A stretch of DNA of 64,000 nt. Source: Candidatus Krumholzibacteriota bacterium. GTDB taxonomy: Bacteria > Krumholzibacteriota > Krumholzibacteriia > Krumholzibacteriales > Krumholzibacteriaceae. Below the pieces are notes generated by a model. It ran no database searches and was not told the origin of the DNA. It worked only from the letters and a program-made list of their open reading frames with translations. The stretch is taken from positions 310,001-374,000 of the forward strand of contig JAFGCX010000010.1 in the NCBI GenBank assembly GCA_016932415.1. The letters run 5' to 3'. Positions 15,774 through 26,660 of the stretch are shown piece by piece (the first letter of the stretch is position 1; each line of letters opens with the position of its first letter). Both the position numbers and the translations under genes were made by a program.

Positions 15774-16853
15774 TCATCGGTTAGCCTTGCGCAGCAGTAT
15801 TCCTCCGATCGAGATGAATATGATATTTCCGAACCAGGCGGCGATCGGTGGGGGGATCACTCCGCTATGGCCAAGCGACTGGCCGATCCTCAGGATACCG
15901 TAATAGGTAAAACTGATGAGCAGTGTAAGACCGAAACCTGTCGCCATCGATGTTTTCCTTTTCGCCGATGAAAGGGAAACTCCGATCATGGCAAATATAA
16001 AACTTGTAAAAGGAAAACTGAATTTAAAATAAAGATCGACCATGTATTTGTCAACAGAACCGCCGCCTCTTCTTACTTTCTCGATATAATCGCGCAGTTC
16101 GTTGAAGTTCATCTCTTCCGGTTCGATCGCGTTCTTGGCGAAGTCTTCGGGTTTTTCGGGGAAATCATCTATCTCGAGCCTGGTAAAAGGGGTGACATCC
16201 TCTCCCGCTTCCTTGAACATGCGTACGGCTCCATCGACGAATACCCAGCTTGTCCCGTTCCAGAAAGCTTTTCTCGCGTCTATCCTTTTTCTGAGATTGG
16301 ATCCTTCATATTCCTGGACGATGATATTGACCATCATGCTCATCGAGATATCATATCTTTCGGCATAATAAGTCCTGTTGTTCTCTCCCTGGTAGTGCAG
16401 GTCGAGTTTGTATCTCAGCGACGATTTCTGTTTGGTCTTTCTGATCTCGACTTCCATGATCTCTTCGGCCTTGCGTTTCGAGACCGGCACTACGAGATCG
16501 CTCATGACGATCGAGAAAGCTGTGATTATCAATGATGAGATGAATATAGGCCTGACCAGCCTGACAAGTGATGTCCCCGACGAGATAAAAGCGGTGAGTT
16601 CATTATCCCTTGAAAGTTTTCCCAGAGTGAATACCGACGCGAGAAGGACAGCGACCGGAGTGATAAGCATTATTATCCACGGGAGCTGGAAAAAGTAATA
16701 CGATAATGCCTGGAGGACAGTCGCGTCTCCATCGATGAATTTGTCGATCTTTTCGCTTATGTCGACAGTGATATAGATCGCGATAAAAGCGGCGATTCCG
16801 ATATATATGTTGCGCCAGAAGGTCGAAAGCATATACCTGTCATTTATCTTCAT
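15774..16853 (-). CDS. LptF/LptG-family permease (LptG-like)
   Basis: The 359-residue permease has three N-terminal membrane segments (about 14-31, 55-78, 100-119), a periplasmic domain (about 120-265) and three C-terminal segments. Between the second and third is the conserved SRDNELTAFISSGTSL coupling region. LptF and LptG form the inner-membrane channel that extracts lipopolysaccharide using the ATPase LptB. It lies 39 bp after the LptF-like gene and reads into the GWxTD gene. No lptB, lptA or lptC is in the window. Assignment to LptG rather than LptF rests on length and gene order. Confidence 0.88.
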   Translation of the reverse strand: MKINDRYMLSTFWRNIYIGIAAFIAIYITVDISEKIDKFIDGDATVLQALSYYFFQLPWIIMLITPVAVLLASVFTLGKLSRDNELTAFISSGTSLVRLVRPIFISSLIITAFSIVMSDLVVPVSKRKAEEIMEVEIRKTKQKSSLRYKLDLHYQGENNRTYYAERYDISMSMMVNIIVQEYEGSNLRKRIDARKAFWNGTSWVFVDGAVRMFKEAGEDVTPFTRLEIDDFPEKPEDFAKNAIEPEEMNFNELRDYIEKVRRGGGSVDKYMVDLYFKFSFPFTSFIFAMIGVSLSSAKRKTSMATGFGLTLLISFTYYGILRIGQSLGHSGVIPPPIAAWFGNIIFISIGGILLRKANR

Positions 16854-16892
16854 CTTACCGCTTTCAAAAGAGGTCCGGATCCGGTTCCGACC

Positions 16893-18296
16893 TTACAATA
16901 TAACGGCCCTTTTTTTCAGCCGCCACCTTTTACGCGGGTTGAACCTGTCCCAGTTTATTGTCTGTGATTCGCGCACTGTACTCCACAGGAGGAGCACCGC
17001 CGCGGAAAGGAGGATGAAGTTCGGAAGCCACATGGCAAGCCATGCTGGCATATACTGCCTGTCGGCGAATTTTTCCCCGCTGATGAGGAACATGTAGTAG
17101 ACGAGGAAGAACAGTATGCTGAATCCAATCGATGTAGTCATCCCCTTTTTGCCGGCCCTGATCGCGAGGGGGGCGCCGACAAGAACGAATATCAGGCAGC
17201 TGAAAGGGATCGAGAATTTCTTGTGTATCTCGACCTGGTATTTGCTGATCAGGCGCTGGCACCCATCTATGATCCTCGCCGCGCTCTCGATGTCATGTTT
17301 CGTCTTTTCAACAGATACCGTTTCCGTTCTGGACGGACTTGTTTCCCCTCCAGGGGTGGTGATTCCCGACTCCTGCTTTACCGGTGCGAGCAGTTCCTTC
17401 AATTCAGGCACGGCGAGTGAAAGTTTCGAGATCATCGCCTGGGCGGCGTCTTTGTTCATCGCCATCCTGTAGCCCGAGGCTTCTTCCTGTTTTTCGGCTA
17501 TCTTTTCCCGCATCATCCCCACATTCATTTCCCTGTCCGTTCTGTGCGTCCTTTCGGACCTGTCGAGACTTCTGTCGATGTCACGCATGTTGATGGTAAA
17601 GTTACTGAAGAGAGTCTTTCTGTACGTAGAGACATCTTTCGGGTCGGGCATCTCGTGAATTTCTCCATCCCTGAGTTCGAACCTCAGTACGTTGTCCTCA
17701 TCAATGAATGACATCTTTCCACTGTTGGCCACGATCGTCGTCGGGATCCCGCCCTTTTGTTTCTGAAATATCTGGACATCCTTTATCTCGCCGGTCTTGT
17801 CGTCCTTTTCCCTGACAAGGATGGTATACCCCTTGATAGCGTCGCTGAATATATTTTCCCTTATTTCGAGAGTAGGTTTCATTTTCTGGATATCGATATA
17901 AAGATTCAGACACTTGTGGTTTGTCTCCGGAAGGATCGCGTTGTTATAGTAGATCAGGGCCGCGCCGAGAATTATAGACGCGATGAGGACGGGGATAATC
18001 ATCCTGTAAAGGGAGATACCGCTTGACTTCATCGCTGTTATCTCGTTTTCCGAAGCGAGTTGCCCGAAAGCCATCATCGTGGCGGGCATTACCGACATTG
18101 GTATAATTAATGCGAACATATGACCGAGACTGAGGATAAAGAATTCGAGGACGACAAGAAAATCGACCCCCTTGCCGATGAACAGACTGAGGTATCGGAA
18201 GATAAAGTCCATAACGAAGACAAAGGTTATGATAGCCAGTCCAAAGAAGTAGGGAGGAAGATGAAGCCTCAGGATATATCGATCAAGAATATGCAT
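16893..18296 (-). CDS. LptF/LptG-family permease (LptF-like) with enlarged periplasmic region
   Basis: The 467-residue permease has the family plan: membrane segments near 15-35, 50-75 and 98-118, the ASENEITAMKSSGISLYR coupling region, a periplasmic domain and terminal membrane segments after about residue 370. The periplasmic part is unusually long. Residues about 235-360 form a charged, coiled-coil-like insertion with an SRTETVS linker before the last membrane bundle, making the protein roughly 100 residues longer than usual. It starts the minus-strand operon, divergent from sprA across a 328 bp spacer. It should pair with the following LptG-like protein. Confidence 0.87.
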   Translation of the reverse strand: MHILDRYILRLHLPPYFFGLAIITFVFVMDFIFRYLSLFIGKGVDFLVVLEFFILSLGHMFALIIPMSVMPATMMAFGQLASENEITAMKSSGISLYRMIIPVLIASIILGAALIYYNNAILPETNHKCLNLYIDIQKMKPTLEIRENIFSDAIKGYTILVREKDDKTGEIKDVQIFQKQKGGIPTTIVANSGKMSFIDEDNVLRFELRDGEIHEMPDPKDVSTYRKTLFSNFTINMRDIDRSLDRSERTHRTDREMNVGMMREKIAEKQEEASGYRMAMNKDAAQAMISKLSLAVPELKELLAPVKQESGITTPGGETSPSRTETVSVEKTKHDIESAARIIDGCQRLISKYQVEIHKKFSIPFSCLIFVLVGAPLAIRAGKKGMTTSIGFSILFFLVYYMFLISGEKFADRQYMPAWLAMWLPNFILLSAAVLLLWSTVRESQTINWDRFNPRKRWRLKKRAVIL

Positions 18297-18624: not shown

Positions 18625-21600
18625 ATGAAGAAGACGGGAAAAATAATCGGCCGCGGAGATAGAAGGAGAGCGGCGGGAAAATATCTCTGCGTCCTGGCCC
18701 TCATTTTTCTGTCAGGTCCCGGAAGTACAGGTGCCCGTGCCCAGACTCTGAGGATCGATCTCTCGGAGGTCTCGAGACAGATAGAGATCCGCTACTACAT
18801 GCAGGAGCATGGGACTCTTCCCCCCGAATATATTCTTCTGAACGGTATAGCCCTGTATCCGAATTTTCTCCAGGGCAGATTTGATCTGAGAAAACGCAAG
18901 TTGGAATATGATCCCATGACCAGGACGCTTTTCAGCTATGACGTGCCTGGAGATCATGTTTTTACCGCCAGAGATGATCGCGACGGCCTCTATTTCAGGA
19001 GTTCCGAAAGGGATGTCAGGATACCCGGCATGAAGATCACTCCCTCCTCGATCGATGAAAGAGCTGAATCGATAAGGAGAAAGGGCTTCAGGAAAACATG
19101 GGTCGACGAGGTCAGGTATAACCTTGAGATAGAAAGGGAGACAAGAAGGGGCGGAGGACTGATCGATCTCAACATCCCGATAAAACTTCCAAAGCAGATA
19201 GAATGGCTCATAGGAGACGGAGAAGAGACGAGACTGACAGTCTCGGGAAAGGAAAAGATAACTATAGGCGGAACTTCAAGGTGGTGCGCCAACTGCCCCG
19301 TGACCGAGGGAAGGCCTTCGCAACAGAAATTTCCCGATCTTGACATGGAACAGCAACTGTCGGTCAACCTTCAGGGAAACATAGGAGAAAAGATACATGT
19401 GAAGATAGATCATTCCAGTATGGGCGGAGGAATGCAATCGACCAACAGGGTCAGCCTTCGATATATCGGGCTGGAAGACGAGATAATCAAATCGATAGAT
19501 ATGGGAGATACTGACCTCACTCTGAGCGGCGCGCAGCTGATCAGTCACTCGGGAGGATCAAGAGGCCTCTTTGGCGTAAAGGTGCAGGCGCAGATCGGGC
19601 TGATGGATCTGACAGTAATCGCGAGCAAGGAGGAGGGAGAGAACGCTTCCGGATCGTTCTCGGGTAGCGGGGGACAAAGCAGCGAATTCATGATCGCTGA
19701 TTATAACTATGTAAAAAGGCAATATTTTTATTTTGAGACGCCAGGCGTGTCTTTCGATACGCCGAATATCGGATTCGTCGGGCATCCGGTCAAGTATTTC
19801 CCCGTGTACGGCGGGACGTTCAATGACATGATCGAAGTCTTCATCTCGCTCAAGACGTATGAACTGGACAATTACCAGGGAGGGGCAAAATTCAAACTCA
19901 AGGCCTGCGTCGATCCGGAAAACAACGGAATTACCGGTAATGAGCCAGGGGCTTTCGAGGATTGGTACCGTCTCGCTAACGAAGGGGAGGATTATTCCCT
20001 TATAAAGTACATCGATTCAGCTTCGGAGTCGAAATATGTGGGGATAAGGCTCAATCAGCCTCTCGATACGGAAAGGTCTCTTGCCGTCCGGTATAAAAGC
20101 GATATGGGAACCTCTTCGACCGCTGATGACATATCTATCGGCGATTACGGTATCTATCCCTCAAACCCCGACCAGGTCCTCAGGGCGGAACTGATCTATC
20201 CTGTCGAGATGGATGAGGAAGACCTCACAGAGCCTCTTGAAAACAAGTTCCTTCATTCGACCTGGAACATGATGATGAGGAATGTCTATTCTCTTGGCTC
20301 GGCCGGTCTTGAGGGAGGAGCTTTGAAGGTCACTATAGAGAATGTCAGGACGATCGTGGGCACGAAGGATATCCAGGAGGAGACGGAACTGAGCTACCTG
20401 CGCATTTTCGGTCTCGACCAGGAGAATGTCGAGTCGCAAAGGATCCCGGACGGGTTGATCGACGACAGGAAGGGGATAATCGATTTCAACTACGGTTACG
20501 TGATGTTTCCCTGGTACGAGCCTTTCAACCTCAGGAGAGATGACATAGCCTATTTCCTCGGTACAGGCGTAGACGAGATGGGTTACGTGATCCCTGATTA
20601 TGTATCGGCCGATTCGGTGATGGCGCACCTTGTACTCAATGACGGGATATATTCCGATTATGACAGCAACCCGAAGCACGAGTATAATATCGTCGTCGAG
20701 GCGACCAGCGGCAACAGGACTTTCCAGCTGAACGCCTTCGATATAATCGAGGGTTCCGAGGTAGTCTCGGTAGATGGTGAAACGCTGATGAGAGGGAGCG
20801 ATTATGACATCGATTATATCGGAGGTACGGTGAGTCTCAAGGGAGACCGACTGCTTACGATGTCTCCCGACGCGAAGGTGTCGATCGATTATCAGCACAA
20901 GTCCCTTATAGGCGGAGGGAAGAGATCGCTCCTGGGATTCAGTTCGAATATGAACCTTTCGACGAATTCAAGGTTAAACGCTTCCTTTCTGTATAATTCC
21001 ATCGGATCACCGAAATACAATCCGCGGCTGGGCGATGAACCGACGATGAATATGGCCGGTGACGTAAATGGATCGTTTCAACTCTCACCCGACTGGATGA
21101 CTTCCGTTGCCAATCTTCTCCCGAGAGTCGATACCGACACGAGGAGTTCACTGAACGTCAACGCTGAAGTCGCCGTGAGCATCCCCAATCCGAACAGGAA
21201 GGGAGAGGCGTTCGTCGATGACATGGAAGGCGTGGAGGAATCAAGCCAGCTCAGCCTCATCAGGCGGATGTGGTATGAGGCGAGTCCTCCGGCAGATCCG
21301 GATAATCCCGGCGCATTCCTCGAATCTTTTGCCGGGGAGGATGAATTCTACTGGTATAATCCGGTACGCGAATCGACATCTCTCCAGTACAAACTGACGA
21401 CGAGTAAAAGGGATCTCAATCCGGGGCTGGATACGCGGGAGAACTCCAGCGTATCGTCCCTTTTCATAAAGGCGATCGATCCGCAGCCGGGCGAGTGGTG
21501 CGGTATCATGACCGGTATCCCCGGAGGACTCGATATCACGACGGCGCAGTATCTCGAGATATGGGTCAACGATTACAATACTGACCCCGACGAGAGGGCA

Positions 21601-24600
21601 GGCAGGCTCCATATAGATTTCGGAAGGATCGACGAGGATTTCCACCAGCCGGAACTCGGAGAGGGGGATGACGAGAAAGAGACCGACTGGACGATCGAAT
21701 ATGACACCGGTTTTCCCGCCGATGACCCCGGTCTCGTCTATCCGAAAGCATTCGATGGAAGTACGTGGGATTCCGTAAAAAAGATATACAGGGGTATCAA
21801 CTCGAGAGTAGGGAACAATTACCATGATACGGAGGACCTGAACCGCAACGGGCGTGTCGATGAGAGAAACGAATACTATTCTCTGGTCCTCGATCTTTCC
21901 GATGAAGCTCTTATAGACGTGCAGAGGGATTTCGACAGGGACAAATATTCCAGTTACTGGACAGACTCGGACAAGACGAGGGATGCCGGTGAGAATTACA
22001 GGATCAACGAAAAAAAAGCCTGGAGGATGTACCGCCTCGATCTGTCAAAGGTCAAACTTCCGACGGGAGTCGCTCCGAGGCTCGATGCGATCCAGCATTT
22101 CAGGATCTGGGTGGAGGACCCGCAGGAACTTCAGGCCCGTATCGAAGTGGACGGATCGATAGATCATCTCGTCGAGATCGCCGAGATGAAATTCATCGGC
22201 AACAGGTGGGAATTTGACAACATCAGGGATATCGCCGATGAGACCCGTATAATCCCGACTCCCGATATGCGTGTCAAGGTAGGGACGATAAACAACAAGG
22301 ACAATCCTTCGATATATTCATCTCCCTACAAGGTGCAGGAGGAGGATGGAATAGACATCAGGGAACAGTCGCTGCTGATCGAGGTGGAGAATTTTGAAAG
22401 GGAAAGATCTTTCAGGCTGATGAAACGCTTCTACGGACAGGGAATGGATTTTCAGCAGTACAGGGAGATAGAGTTCTGGATCAGGGGAAACCAGGATCTT
22501 ACCAGTCATGATGGCGATGTAGTCGATTTCTATCTTCAGTTCGCTTATGACAGCCTCAACTACTATGAAGTAGTCGTACCACTGACCAGTCAGAGGGCTG
22601 GCCGGTGGAACGCCGTCCACATAACTCTCAGCGATCTTACCAACATGAAACTCAATCCTTCTGGTGGCGATATCACCGAGATCCTGATACATGACGCCTC
22701 CGATCCATCAAAAAGTTATCAGGCTAGATTGAGGGGAGACCCTACCCTGTTCAATGTACGGTTTCTCTATTCGGGATTAAGGAACAGGACAGGTATCATG
22801 ATCCCGAGCGGAGAGGCATGGTTCAACGATATCGTAGTCGACAATGTGAGAAAAGACATTGACCACGCCGAGAGACTCAGCGTCTCGACAAACTTCGGAG
22901 GGATATTCTCTCTGTCAGGCAACTGGCAGCGCACCGGTCCGGAGTTCAGGTCGCTCAACCAGAAGAGGGGAAGCGGGGTGACGACCAACAGCTATTCGCT
23001 GAGCGCGAAGACAGAGGTCAATCATATCATCCCGACAGGGGGGTTCCAGCTTCCCGTGTCGCTGAAGTACGGAGCATCGACCTCGAAACCGAAGTATCTC
23101 CCGCAGAAAGATGTCGAGATAACCGATGCCGCTGTTCAGGACAGCCTCAGGTCGGTCAACAACAGTGTCAATTTCAGCGTCGCGATGAGCCGCCGGGGAT
23201 CGAAGAATATTATTATGAAGAATCTCTTTGATAATCTCAAAGCGGGGATGAGCTATTCAAAGAGCGCCAGTTTTTCGCCGACGGCGAAGGATACCTCCTG
23301 GACTCTCGCCGGAAACGCCACTTACCAGCTTCAGTTCAGAAAGGACAGGGAATTGAAGCTCTTCAAGGGGATAAAGTGGAGATACTGGCTTACAGATTTT
23401 TCGTTCAGGGCGTCAGGGGCGCGGTCTGTCAGGAGAGGGTATTCATATTCGAACAGCGAGTTTGTCAAGCGGCCCGATTTTTATTCATGCCACTGGGATA
23501 ACGAGATGAGTACCGTCTATCAGCCTTTTGAATCGATCAAATTCAACTACCGGAGGACGGAGAAACGCAATCTCGCCGTTGAAAATATGATGTACGGCGT
23601 CGATATAGGGATACTGACCTCGTTTATCCAGACCCTGAACATGAGCTATCAGCCCAAGGGTGGGGTCTTTCTGATCTCCCAGTTCAATCCGAGATTTGAA
23701 TATAACACAAAATACGAGGAAGACCTGAAACCAGGGATAAGACAGGCGGAAGATCCGGAAGGGACGAGGGATGTCTACGCGACGCGGGGAATCAATGTCG
23801 TGTTCGATGTCGATGTCGGCAAATACGCGATGGGATTCGGAAAGATGGTCAAGATTATCGGGCAGGAGGAGGAGATCTCGGCGAGAAAGGTGATGAACCA
23901 GAGGGCGTCCCACGAAGAGAGAAAATCCCAGTTCGAGGAGATGCTCAAGAATAAGAAGACAAGTTCGGACAAGGGCGTCGCCGGGGAACAGGTCTCTCTC
24001 GACCCGAATCCCGGTTCCACTCAGCCTGTCGATCCGACTGCCGCGGGAGGGCAGACAGCTGAGACTGAAGAGAAAAAAGGAACGTTTGCCGATCTCGGCC
24101 TTAAACGTCCGCGCGCCGGGCTGGGGGACAAAAAAGAAGCATCATCGCCGGACAGCATGGCGGTCGACAGCACTTTGACCGCGGACAGTAAAGAACAGGG
24201 AAAGAAGGCGGCTGACCCGATGCTTCTGTTCAGGCATCTTCTGCGGTTTCTCGGGCGGGTCGATCCGGTCAAGAGCACTTTCAAGATAGACAGGCGCAGC
24301 CAGTTCGAACGCCTTTACGAGAGGGCCGGTATGGGGTATCAGTTCGGATTCGCGTCGAGAAGCGGTACGGAAGGAGCGTTGGGAGGCCCGGACGCCGATC
24401 CTCTGAGGGAGAACACTGGCATCACTCTGAATCTCAGGTCGGGATTCGATATCACATCCAACCTCTCGGCCAATCTCAATTTCAATATGTCGAAACGCGA
24501 GGATATGTCATATTCAAGGAGATCGGAAGCGCAGGATCTGACATGGCCCGACGTGAACCTCAACTGGAGAGGTCTGCAGGAGTGGGCCATCCTGAGAAGG

Positions 24601-25107
24601 TATATTGAGAGAAGCGATCTGAATATCAGCTATATAGAGAGGACCTCGAAAAAACTCGGTGAAGAGACGAACGCCTTCCAGATCACTCCGAACTGGAATC
24701 TGAGATGGAAAAACAGCCTGACATCGAATTTCTCGGTGGCTTACTCGAAAAAAACCACCATTGACAGGGGTCAGGAACTGTGGGATAAAAGCTGGTCGGC
24801 TAATCTTGAACTGAAGTATGATATCAAGGGGACCAAAGGAATCGGAATGCCCCTGCCATTCCTCAATAAAAAGAAACTCAAGTTCGAAAGCGCCCTTACG
24901 ACGGTCCTCAACGTCAGCTACAGCAGGGCGGAAAGATATAACGTTCCTCCGACTTCGACTCTCTCCATCTATCCGAGATTCACTTATACATTCAGCAGGA
25001 ACGTGTCGGGAAACCTCGCTCTCGGTTACAAGAGGAGTGCTGGAGGTATCTACGGTTACATCAATCATGAGGTGAGCTTGCATGCCACGGCGGAATTTAA
25101 GTTCTAG
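18625..25107 (+). CDS. SprA-like giant outer-membrane protein (type IX secretion translocon family)
   Basis: At 2160 residues this matches the size of SprA/Sov, the outer-membrane translocon of the type IX secretion system in Bacteroidota. A signal peptide (basic N-region, LCVLALIFLS core, GARA/Q cleavage after residue 39) leaves Gln40 as predicted mature N-terminus. SprA-type sequence includes the GTSRWCANCPVTEG region near 214 and repeated stretches of alternating beta-strand pattern throughout, for example VHVKIDHSSMGGG-like segments and a beta-rich C-terminus ending in KF. A low-complexity Lys/Glu/Ser-rich insertion occupies about residues 1750-1870. The downstream M28 gene overlaps its last 26 bp. 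The family is confident; a working type IX system is not shown, as no PorV or other component lies here. Confidence 0.85.
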   Translation: MKKTGKIIGRGDRRRAAGKYLCVLALIFLSGPGSTGARAQTLRIDLSEVSRQIEIRYYMQEHGTLPPEYILLNGIALYPNFLQGRFDLRKRKLEYDPMTRTLFSYDVPGDHVFTARDDRDGLYFRSSERDVRIPGMKITPSSIDERAESIRRKGFRKTWVDEVRYNLEIERETRRGGGLIDLNIPIKLPKQIEWLIGDGEETRLTVSGKEKITIGGTSRWCANCPVTEGRPSQQKFPDLDMEQQLSVNLQGNIGEKIHVKIDHSSMGGGMQSTNRVSLRYIGLEDEIIKSIDMGDTDLTLSGAQLISHSGGSRGLFGVKVQAQIGLMDLTVIASKEEGENASGSFSGSGGQSSEFMIADYNYVKRQYFYFETPGVSFDTPNIGFVGHPVKYFPVYGGTFNDMIEVFISLKTYELDNYQGGAKFKLKACVDPENNGITGNEPGAFEDWYRLANEGEDYSLIKYIDSASESKYVGIRLNQPLDTERSLAVRYKSDMGTSSTADDISIGDYGIYPSNPDQVLRAELIYPVEMDEEDLTEPLENKFLHSTWNMMMRNVYSLGSAGLEGGALKVTIENVRTIVGTKDIQEETELSYLRIFGLDQENVESQRIPDGLIDDRKGIIDFNYGYVMFPWYEPFNLRRDDIAYFLGTGVDEMGYVIPDYVSADSVMAHLVLNDGIYSDYDSNPKHEYNIVVEATSGNRTFQLNAFDIIEGSEVVSVDGETLMRGSDYDIDYIGGTVSLKGDRLLTMSPDAKVSIDYQHKSLIGGGKRSLLGFSSNMNLSTNSRLNASFLYNSIGSPKYNPRLGDEPTMNMAGDVNGSFQLSPDWMTSVANLLPRVDTDTRSSLNVNAEVAVSIPNPNRKGEAFVDDMEGVEESSQLSLIRRMWYEASPPADPDNPGAFLESFAGEDEFYWYNPVRESTSLQYKLTTSKRDLNPGLDTRENSSVSSLFIKAIDPQPGEWCGIMTGIPGGLDITTAQYLEIWVNDYNTDPDERAGRLHIDFGRIDEDFHQPELGEGDDEKETDWTIEYDTGFPADDPGLVYPKAFDGSTWDSVKKIYRGINSRVGNNYHDTEDLNRNGRVDERNEYYSLVLDLSDEALIDVQRDFDRDKYSSYWTDSDKTRDAGENYRINEKKAWRMYRLDLSKVKLPTGVAPRLDAIQHFRIWVEDPQELQARIEVDGSIDHLVEIAEMKFIGNRWEFDNIRDIADETRIIPTPDMRVKVGTINNKDNPSIYSSPYKVQEEDGIDIREQSLLIEVENFERERSFRLMKRFYGQGMDFQQYREIEFWIRGNQDLTSHDGDVVDFYLQFAYDSLNYYEVVVPLTSQRAGRWNAVHITLSDLTNMKLNPSGGDITEILIHDASDPSKSYQARLRGDPTLFNVRFLYSGLRNRTGIMIPSGEAWFNDIVVDNVRKDIDHAERLSVSTNFGGIFSLSGNWQRTGPEFRSLNQKRGSGVTTNSYSLSAKTEVNHIIPTGGFQLPVSLKYGASTSKPKYLPQKDVEITDAAVQDSLRSVNNSVNFSVAMSRRGSKNIIMKNLFDNLKAGMSYSKSASFSPTAKDTSWTLAGNATYQLQFRKDRELKLFKGIKWRYWLTDFSFRASGARSVRRGYSYSNSEFVKRPDFYSCHWDNEMSTVYQPFESIKFNYRRTEKRNLAVENMMYGVDIGILTSFIQTLNMSYQPKGGVFLISQFNPRFEYNTKYEEDLKPGIRQAEDPEGTRDVYATRGINVVFDVDVGKYAMGFGKMVKIIGQEEEISARKVMNQRASHEERKSQFEEMLKNKKTSSDKGVAGEQVSLDPNPGSTQPVDPTAAGGQTAETEEKKGTFADLGLKRPRAGLGDKKEASSPDSMAVDSTLTADSKEQGKKAADPMLLFRHLLRFLGRVDPVKSTFKIDRRSQFERLYERAGMGYQFGFASRSGTEGALGGPDADPLRENTGITLNLRSGFDITSNLSANLNFNMSKREDMSYSRRSEAQDLTWPDVNLNWRGLQEWAILRRYIERSDLNISYIERTSKKLGEETNAFQITPNWNLRWKNSLTSNFSVAYSKKTTIDRGQELWDKSWSANLELKYDIKGTKGIGMPLPFLNKKKLKFESALTTVLNVSYSRAERYNVPPTSTLSIYPRFTYTFSRNVSGNLALGYKRSAGGIYGYINHEVSLHATAEFKF

Positions 25108-26014
25108 GAGATTTCCAGGCTTTCAGATGGCAGCTCTTTTTCTCTCTGCCGCGCTGGCGATAAGCGCGTGTGGAAGTAACGATCCTCCCGTGTTCGATGC
25201 CGATAACGCTTTTGATCTTCTCGAGCAGCAATGCGGGATTGGGCCCCGGTTTCCCGGAAGCCCGGAGCACAGGATGCTGCAGAGGTACCTGGCATCCAGC
25301 CTGGAAAGATACGGAGCGAATCTTTCGCTGCAGCCGTTCGAGGGGATCCTCAGCAGCGGAGATACTCTTCGACTGGTAAATATCATCGGTAACTACAATA
25401 TGAAATCAGGCAAGAGGATAATGCTTGGAGCCCATTATGATACAAGGCCTGTCGCCGACATGGATCCCGATCCGGCAAACAGGGATATTCCTATAACAGG
25501 AGCTAACGATGGGGCCAGCGGAGTCGCCGTTCTTCTTGAAATAGCGAGGCTTCTGGGTGAACACCCTCCTCCCGTCGGAGTCGATATTATACTTTTTGAC
25601 GGAGAAGATTATGGAGAAGCGGGAAAGGCGGAGGATTTCTGCCTCGGATCGGCATATTTCGCATCCAACACCCGTGGATACATGCCTTTCGCGGCGATCG
25701 TGATCGATATGATTGGAGATTCGGATCTTGTAATCAGGCAGGAGGGATTTTCGCGAGCGGCGGCGCCTGACCTGTATGAAGAGATATTCGCGATCGCTGA
25801 TGAGCTTGGCCTGCGGCAGTTCCGCAGGGAAAAGGGTCAGATGATCATAGACGACCACCTGCCGTTGATACAGGCGGGATTCAGAGCGGTCGACCTGATC
25901 GATTTTGATTACGATCACTGGCATACTCTCGAGGACACGCCGGACAAGTGTTCCCGGGAAAGCCTCGACGCTGTGGGAAGGGTCCTTATAGAGTTCATCT
26001 GGCGGCAGAAATAG
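25082..26014 (+). CDS. Lipoprotein M28-family peptidase, glutaminyl-peptide cyclotransferase type
   Basis: The 310-residue protein has a lipoprotein signal (lipobox ISAC, Cys30) and a zinc aminopeptidase-like fold. Predicted zinc and catalytic residues are Asp143 (GANDGAS), Glu175/Asp176 (FDGEDYG) and His281 (DHWHTLEDTPD). The HYDTRP motif (119-123) and the CLGSAYFA segment after the DGED motif are typical of glutaminyl cyclases, which turn N-terminal Gln into pyroglutamate, rather than true aminopeptidases. The ATG at 25082 follows GAGGTGA and overlaps sprA; ATG 25127 is an alternative. Location is probably periplasm, membrane-anchored. Adjacent SprA has a predicted N-terminal Gln. Confidence 0.82.
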   Translation: MPRRNLSSRRFPGFQMAALFLSAALAISACGSNDPPVFDADNAFDLLEQQCGIGPRFPGSPEHRMLQRYLASSLERYGANLSLQPFEGILSSGDTLRLVNIIGNYNMKSGKRIMLGAHYDTRPVADMDPDPANRDIPITGANDGASGVAVLLEIARLLGEHPPPVGVDIILFDGEDYGEAGKAEDFCLGSAYFASNTRGYMPFAAIVIDMIGDSDLVIRQEGFSRAAAPDLYEEIFAIADELGLRQFRREKGQMIIDDHLPLIQAGFRAVDLIDFDYDHWHTLEDTPDKCSRESLDAVGRVLIEFIWRQK

Positions 26015-26099
26015 GAAGACATATTAAAATCGCTTTCCAGGTCCGGTACGATTTCACTTGATTTTTAACACTTTTTCAACTAGGTATTAGTGGATGTTG

Positions 26100-26128
26100 A
26101 TGGGGCGGATGCCCCATTTATTTTTATA
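26100..26128 (+). terminator. Terminator-like hairpin between the sprA operon and rimP
   Basis: Perfect stem ATGGGGC (26100-26106) and GCCCCAT (26111-26117) with a GGAT loop, followed by TTATTTTTAT. It lies 86 bp after the cyclase stop and 29 bp before rimP. It is either the terminator of the sprA-cyclase transcript or an attenuator in the rimP leader; a TTGATT about 40 bp upstream might be a -35 element. Confidence 0.7.
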
Positions 26129-26156: not shown

Positions 26157-26660
26157 ATGGCAGACAAGGAACATCTGGTTGCGCTTCTCAACAGAGAAAT
26201 CGATGCTCTCGGTTTTGAACTTGTCAAACTCGACAGGTTTTCCCGGGGCAGAAGAGAGATCCTGCGCATTTTTATAGATGATGCGGAAAACGGAGTCACG
26301 ATTGACGATTGCGTGAAGGTGACGAAAGCTCTCGGGCTTGTCCTCGATGGAGACGAACTTCTGCCCGGTTCTTATAACCTCGAAGTGTCCACTCCCGGCA
26401 TGAACCGTCCGCTTACGAAAAGGGAGCATTTTGTGCGGTTCACGGGAAAGTCTGCGAGAGTCGAGTATCTCGGCGGTCAGGGCGAGAAGTCATCTTTGAT
26501 CGGTGAGATAGAGGGGCTGGAGGATGACTGCCTTCTTCTTTCGAAGGCGGGGATCAGTGAGAAGATAGAATTTGACAGGATCGTCAAGGCAAATCTTCAT
26601 GGAGAAAAATGGGGGACATCGGCCGAAAAGAAAAATTTAAAAAGCAGAGGAAGAAAATAA
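26157..26660 (+). CDS. rimP: Ribosome maturation factor RimP
   Basis: This 167-residue factor assists assembly of the 30S subunit. The two-domain RimP pattern is clear: GFELVKLDRFSRGRREILRIFID in the N-terminal domain, followed by the signature VSTPGMNRPL near 79-88. The C-terminal SH3-like domain ends with a basic tail. Length is normal. The gene begins the rimP-nusA-infB translation cluster found in most bacteria. A strong-looking promoter lies between it and nusA, so nusA may also be transcribed separately. Confidence 0.95.
   Translation: MADKEHLVALLNREIDALGFELVKLDRFSRGRREILRIFIDDAENGVTIDDCVKVTKALGLVLDGDELLPGSYNLEVSTPGMNRPLTKREHFVRFTGKSARVEYLGGQGEKSSLIGEIEGLEDDCLLLSKAGISEKIEFDRIVKANLHGEKWGTSAEKKNLKSRGRK

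Follow-up and report, generated by a model that had tools for sequence, protein, structure and literature searches.

The window (the whole 64,000-nucleotide stretch of Candidatus Krumholzibacteriota DNA that was analyzed) contains on its forward strand an sprA-like gene (positions 18625–25107), whose 2160-aa product belongs to the family of outer-membrane translocons of the type IX secretion system (T9SS). The product scores 470 bits (1.8e-140) with TIGR04189, the NCBIfam SprA/Sov model (curated cut-off, 200 bits), matches the solved F. johnsoniae SprA (PDB 6h3i) at 9.8e-32, and is the only full-length SprA match in the window's own genome. A 39-aa Sec signal peptide ending in ARA (18625–18741) is predicted from the sequence by our in-house site scorer, and Gln40 (18742–18744) would then form the N-terminus of mature SprA. 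This placement of Gln at +1, made in a preliminary description of the locus, holds as a prediction: ARA/Q was the top-scoring site in two later in-house scans, the first scan having put the site two residues earlier (GA/RAQT).

The next gene (25082–26014, forward strand) codes for a 310-aa lipoprotein of the M28 fold, a homologue of type II (animal/bacteroidal) glutaminyl cyclases. The two open reading frames were confirmed, and with them the previously noted 26-bp overlap (25082–25107). A Shine–Dalgarno-like AGGTGAG (25070–25076) is located within the 3′ end of sprA, ahead of the overlapping ATG, and a GAGGT-like motif is found at the equivalent place in relatives. In ten relatives read for this feature, which belong to different genera, the cyclase likewise starts 25 bp before the sprA stop codon (ATG in nine, GTG in one). 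Between the cyclase gene and rimP (26157–26660, forward strand; identified by its reading frame and a profile match), which begins the downstream rimP-nusA-infB cluster, there is a weak terminator-like hairpin followed by a T-rich tail (26099–26118, forward strand); the number of such sites was not above that in shuffled sequences. Upstream, sprA adjoins the divergent genes lptF (16893–18296, reverse strand; Pfam LptF_LptG, 1.5e-82) and lptG (15774–16853, reverse strand; profile matches). The divergent lptF/lptG pair (15774–18296) is kept beside sprA across several phyla (loci L018, L019, L026, L028, and L034), and lptG overlaps by 4 bp the gene of a GWxTD-domain protein (TIGR04514; 14101–15777).

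Elsewhere in the same genome, which is metagenome-assembled, there are 11 PorV-family matches and a PorU match of 542 bits, and the type IX C-terminal signal (CTD) is matched 76 times. TIGR models, which could miss distant homologues, detected no GldL or GldM over cut-off in four Krumholzibacteriota genomes, while a Bacteroidota control (G080) was positive for GldK, GldL, and GldM. GldK-domain matches in Krumholzibacteriota were weak, reaching 80 bits in the genome of the window where the cut-off is 350. GldL and GldM were also not found in SprA-bearing examples from Balneolota, Calditrichota, Fidelibacterota, and Latescibacterota.

Identity of the M28 enzyme

The product of the second gene matches Pfam M28 at 2.6e-32, and its best solved relatives are the Bacteroides, Porphyromonas, and Tannerella glutaminyl cyclases (4fuu, 7d1d, and 6qql; 1.3e-60 to 1e-54). 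An AF2 model built from 28 sequences (pLDDT 87.6) had bacteroidal cyclases as its best Foldseek matches in the PDB, with TM scores of 0.8–0.9. Type II cyclases from outside Bacteroidota are already present in the PDB (7d1b and 7d18). The sequence contains a predicted lipobox with Cys30 (LAISAC/GS, cut ISA/C; codon at 25169–25171). Most of the sprA-linked cyclases of family f6 (L104–L118) have no lipobox and resemble substrates of signal peptidase I. In Calditrichota and Fidelibacterota (L034, L037, L042, and L045) the cyclase is apparently cut before Gln (AAQ), and may thus be its own substrate.

The preliminary description had named loss of catalytic residues on structural modelling as something that would refute its proposal; in the alignment they are intact. 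The zinc ligands D143, D176, and H281 correspond to D149, D183, and H299 of the P. gingivalis enzyme (PgQC), and the catalytic residues E175, D209, and D257 correspond to PgQC E182, D218, and D267. W280 (PgQC W298) and the cyclase-type Asp-Gly (PgQC 149–150) are also present. In an alignment, all these positions were kept in every Krumholzibacteriota row with one exception at H281 (a frame with a stop was left out of one realignment). The equivalent of PgQC Trp193 is Phe186; since Phe or Tyr occupies this position in 43 of the 44 Krumholzibacteriota rows, and 45 of the 74 rows from elsewhere have Tyr, Trp193 is not a strict criterion for a cyclase.

The plant-type cyclase family PF05096 was not found in the window's genome, which makes the M28 enzyme the only glutaminyl cyclase of known type found there. 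Three near-complete genomes devoid of an M28 cyclase (G003, G006, and G079; loci L097, L099, and L121), which are all the genomes of this kind whose sprA region was read, carry PF05096 on another contig; neither cyclase type was detected in the near-complete genome G067 or in G073. PF05096 was present in three of four high-quality genomes without the M28 cyclase vs. four of 42 with it (p = 0.009), and in 4/8 vs. 8/69 when all genomes were counted (p = 0.018). The greater frequency of PF05096 where the M28 enzyme is missing suggests that the activity being kept is glutamine cyclization.

Glutamine at +1 of exported proteins

To estimate how often Gln follows the predicted signal peptidase I site, twenty 20-kb stretches of the genome were sampled together with the window (ca. 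15% of the genome), in addition to twenty short N-terminal pieces. Sites were called with an in-house procedure, which is rough, was developed on small samples, and had its weights altered after results had been seen. In the reported version (version 4), −3/−1 weights are fixed and distance is counted from where the hydrophobic stretch ends. At its strict setting, Gln was at +1 in eight of 44 predicted signal peptidase I substrates (18% [8–33%]) against a background of 2.6%; both this share and the corresponding p value (1.7e-5) are indicative, because the weights were tuned on output. In other genomes, version 4 gave 7/22 (G074), 5/15 (Calditrichota), and 0/11 (G042, an f6 genome, whose cyclase thus has few visible substrates), and in the comparison groups 16/30 (Bacteroidota), 10/18 (Balneolota), and 0/16 (E. 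coli). With 18% in the window's genome vs. 53–56% in Bacteroidota and Balneolota, Gln does not reach a majority at +1 here.

Version 1 gave 7/44 (16%), missed some sites that were plausible by eye, and cut SprA two residues early; version 2, with revised weights, gave 9/53 (17%); and version 4 at a threshold of 3.3 gave 4/24 (17%). A looser setting gave 7/66 (11%), with 1/21 in E. coli and 20/42 in Bacteroidota. Version 3, an unsupervised EM procedure with +1 masked, was abandoned after collapsing onto the hydrophobic core. The order of the groups (Bacteroidota and Balneolota above the window's genome, and the latter above E. coli) was the same in all working versions. Among type IX cargo N-termini located by coordinate in the window's genome, Gln was at +1 in six of 20 sampled, one of these being a tied site. 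The PorV beside PorU has LSA/QGE by eye, though the scorer favored another site.

The preliminary description had cautioned that the three other predicted substrates in the window have Glu, Asn, or Gly at +1, and had proposed +1 statistics across the genome as a check. The caution applies within the window itself; the wider sample indicates that predicted Gln +1 is enriched in this genome and yet confined to a minority of substrates. In Bacteroidetes the mean frequency of Gln at +1 is 71%, and a continuum beyond that group has already been noted (PMC5837995).

Gene order in relatives and the SprA N-terminus

By cyclase sequence, the closest named relatives are Candidatus Krumholzibacteriota. 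In this phylum sprA was found in 80 of 80 genomes searched, and a cyclase match at 1e-10 in 74, a few of these being weak M28 matches (e.g., G003 and G006). Forty regions were read, three of them without cyclase and the others picked because sprA and cyclase shared a contig. In 35 the cyclase immediately follows sprA on the same strand (in two of these, the sprA frame is broken), a rate that is biased by this selection; in the remaining five it is ca. 4.7 kb from sprA (two) or absent (three). In G075, a single-contig genome, the two genes are far apart. The same order occurs in loci from Calditrichota, Fidelibacterota, KSB1, Zixibacteriota, and TA06, and was not seen in the Bacteroidota, Balneolota, Cloacimonadota, and Latescibacterota loci examined. 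The adjacency reported for the window is kept in relatives and recurs in several related phyla. At four loci that at first appeared unlinked, the SprA frame ends just upstream of the cyclase, making them linked. The cyclase tree groups by phylum, and the linkage label changes 10 times along it vs. ca. 38 in shuffles, a count made with these four loci still labelled unlinked. Full-text literature searches found no paper connecting sprA with a cyclase, and a plasmid search found nothing.

Mature SprA is predicted to start with Gln in eight of 12 readable f1/f2 genomes (by eye) and at the majority of linked loci from other phyla. In the 15 f6 regions, judged by eye, its first residue appears to be Asp in at least 12 and Gln in one, and the cyclase gene still adjoins. 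Linkage also persists where the predicted first residue is Gly, Ala, or Arg, and in the f4 genome G005, where it is Asp. Unlinked SprA examples from Balneolota, Cloacimonadota, and Latescibacterota are predicted to begin with Gln as well. Thus, Gln on SprA and linkage of the two genes do not go together.

Probable function of the cyclase and comparison with known systems

We consider it probable that the enzyme is a general periplasmic glutaminyl cyclase that gene order couples to sprA and that serves a partial Q-rule outside Bacteroidota. sprA and the cyclase gene would make up a short operon with coupled translation. The cyclase, a predicted lipoprotein facing the periplasm, would convert the Gln left at the N-terminus by signal peptidase I to pyroglutamate. 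In the window's genome its substrates would be a considerable minority of the exported proteins, with SprA, PorV, and some of the type IX cargo among them, and the enzyme would serve the type IX-bearing envelope in general, with no specificity for SprA. By analogy with P. gingivalis, where protection from aminopeptidases has been described (PMC10653852), pyroglutamate may shield substrate N-termini from these enzymes.

Other readings of the locus were weighed against this one. Family membership, weak matches to generic aminopeptidase models, and the change of Trp193 to Phe would fit an M28 aminopeptidase, which we nevertheless regard as very unlikely: the top sequence and fold matches are cyclases, the single-zinc Asp/Asp/His set, the Asp-Gly, and the Trp298 equivalent are kept, and three near-complete genomes devoid of the enzyme carry a plant-type cyclase. 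The single-zinc set, the Asp-Gly, and W298 are among the marks that tell cyclases from aminopeptidases (PMC7948796). Still more improbable is a cyclase dedicated to SprA, as the preliminary description had suggested. That suggestion included co-expression outside Bacteroidota, which is supported at the level of gene order; conserved linkage and the Gln start of SprA in f1/f2 genomes and most linked loci of other phyla agree with it. Its dedicated part is not supported, given the linked genomes whose SprA is predicted to start with another residue (f6 and G005 among them), the unlinked SprA proteins with a predicted Gln start, and the other exported proteins with predicted Gln +1 in the window's genome. 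Furthermore, no second cyclase of known type was found there, and the plant-type enzyme of the three relatives without the gene is not linked to sprA.

A general cyclase whose place behind sprA is inherited gene order, with no functional coupling, is an unlikely though credible account. Linkage follows phylum, plant-type cyclases replace the enzyme without adjoining sprA, the f3 genomes have their cyclase 4.7 kb away, and the divergent lptF/lptG genes beside sprA are likewise conserved. Against this account are the retention of linkage across several phyla and the overlapping start common to ten relatives of different genera, but the ATG falls within codons for conserved C-terminal residues of SprA. 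A wider proposal, that a motor-less T9SS outside Bacteroidota has cyclization of N-terminal Gln built into it, with an sprA–cyclase operon ancestral to several FCB phyla and with capping of translocon parts and cargo needed for secretion, appears rather doubtful. On the favored reading, that of a general cyclase coupled to sprA, one putative operon would unite a type IX translocon with a candidate type II glutaminyl cyclase and a partial Q-rule, in phyla to which the Q-rule has been said not to apply, and would hint genetically at a connection between N-terminal pyroglutamate and type IX secretion. A generic role in type IX targeting was not found in the founding study of the Q-rule, despite co-occurrence (PMC5837995).

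Compared with known systems, the locus combines shared and divergent features. Like Bacteroidota SprA/Sov, the window's SprA exceeds the TIGR04189 cut-off and is accompanied in its genome by PorV, PorU, and CTD cargo; unlike F. johnsoniae SprA (6h3i), with which it aligns partially, it comes from a phylum other than Bacteroidota. The genome differs from one with a complete Bacteroidota-type T9SS in having no GldL/GldM motor detectable by the models and a GldK match below cut-off. As in the Q-rule of Bacteroidetes (PMC5837995), Gln is enriched at +1 of predicted signal peptidase I substrates, in about a fifth of them here vs. the 71% mean there. Finally, whereas the window's cyclase differs from PgQC and BtQC (B. 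thetaiotaomicron) in its coupling to sprA, in having Phe in place of Trp193, and in probably serving a partial Q-rule where theirs is a majority one, it shares with them the M28 fold, the Asp/Asp/His zinc set, the catalytic Glu and Asp, and the predicted lipoprotein anchor (PMC5837995, PMC7948796).
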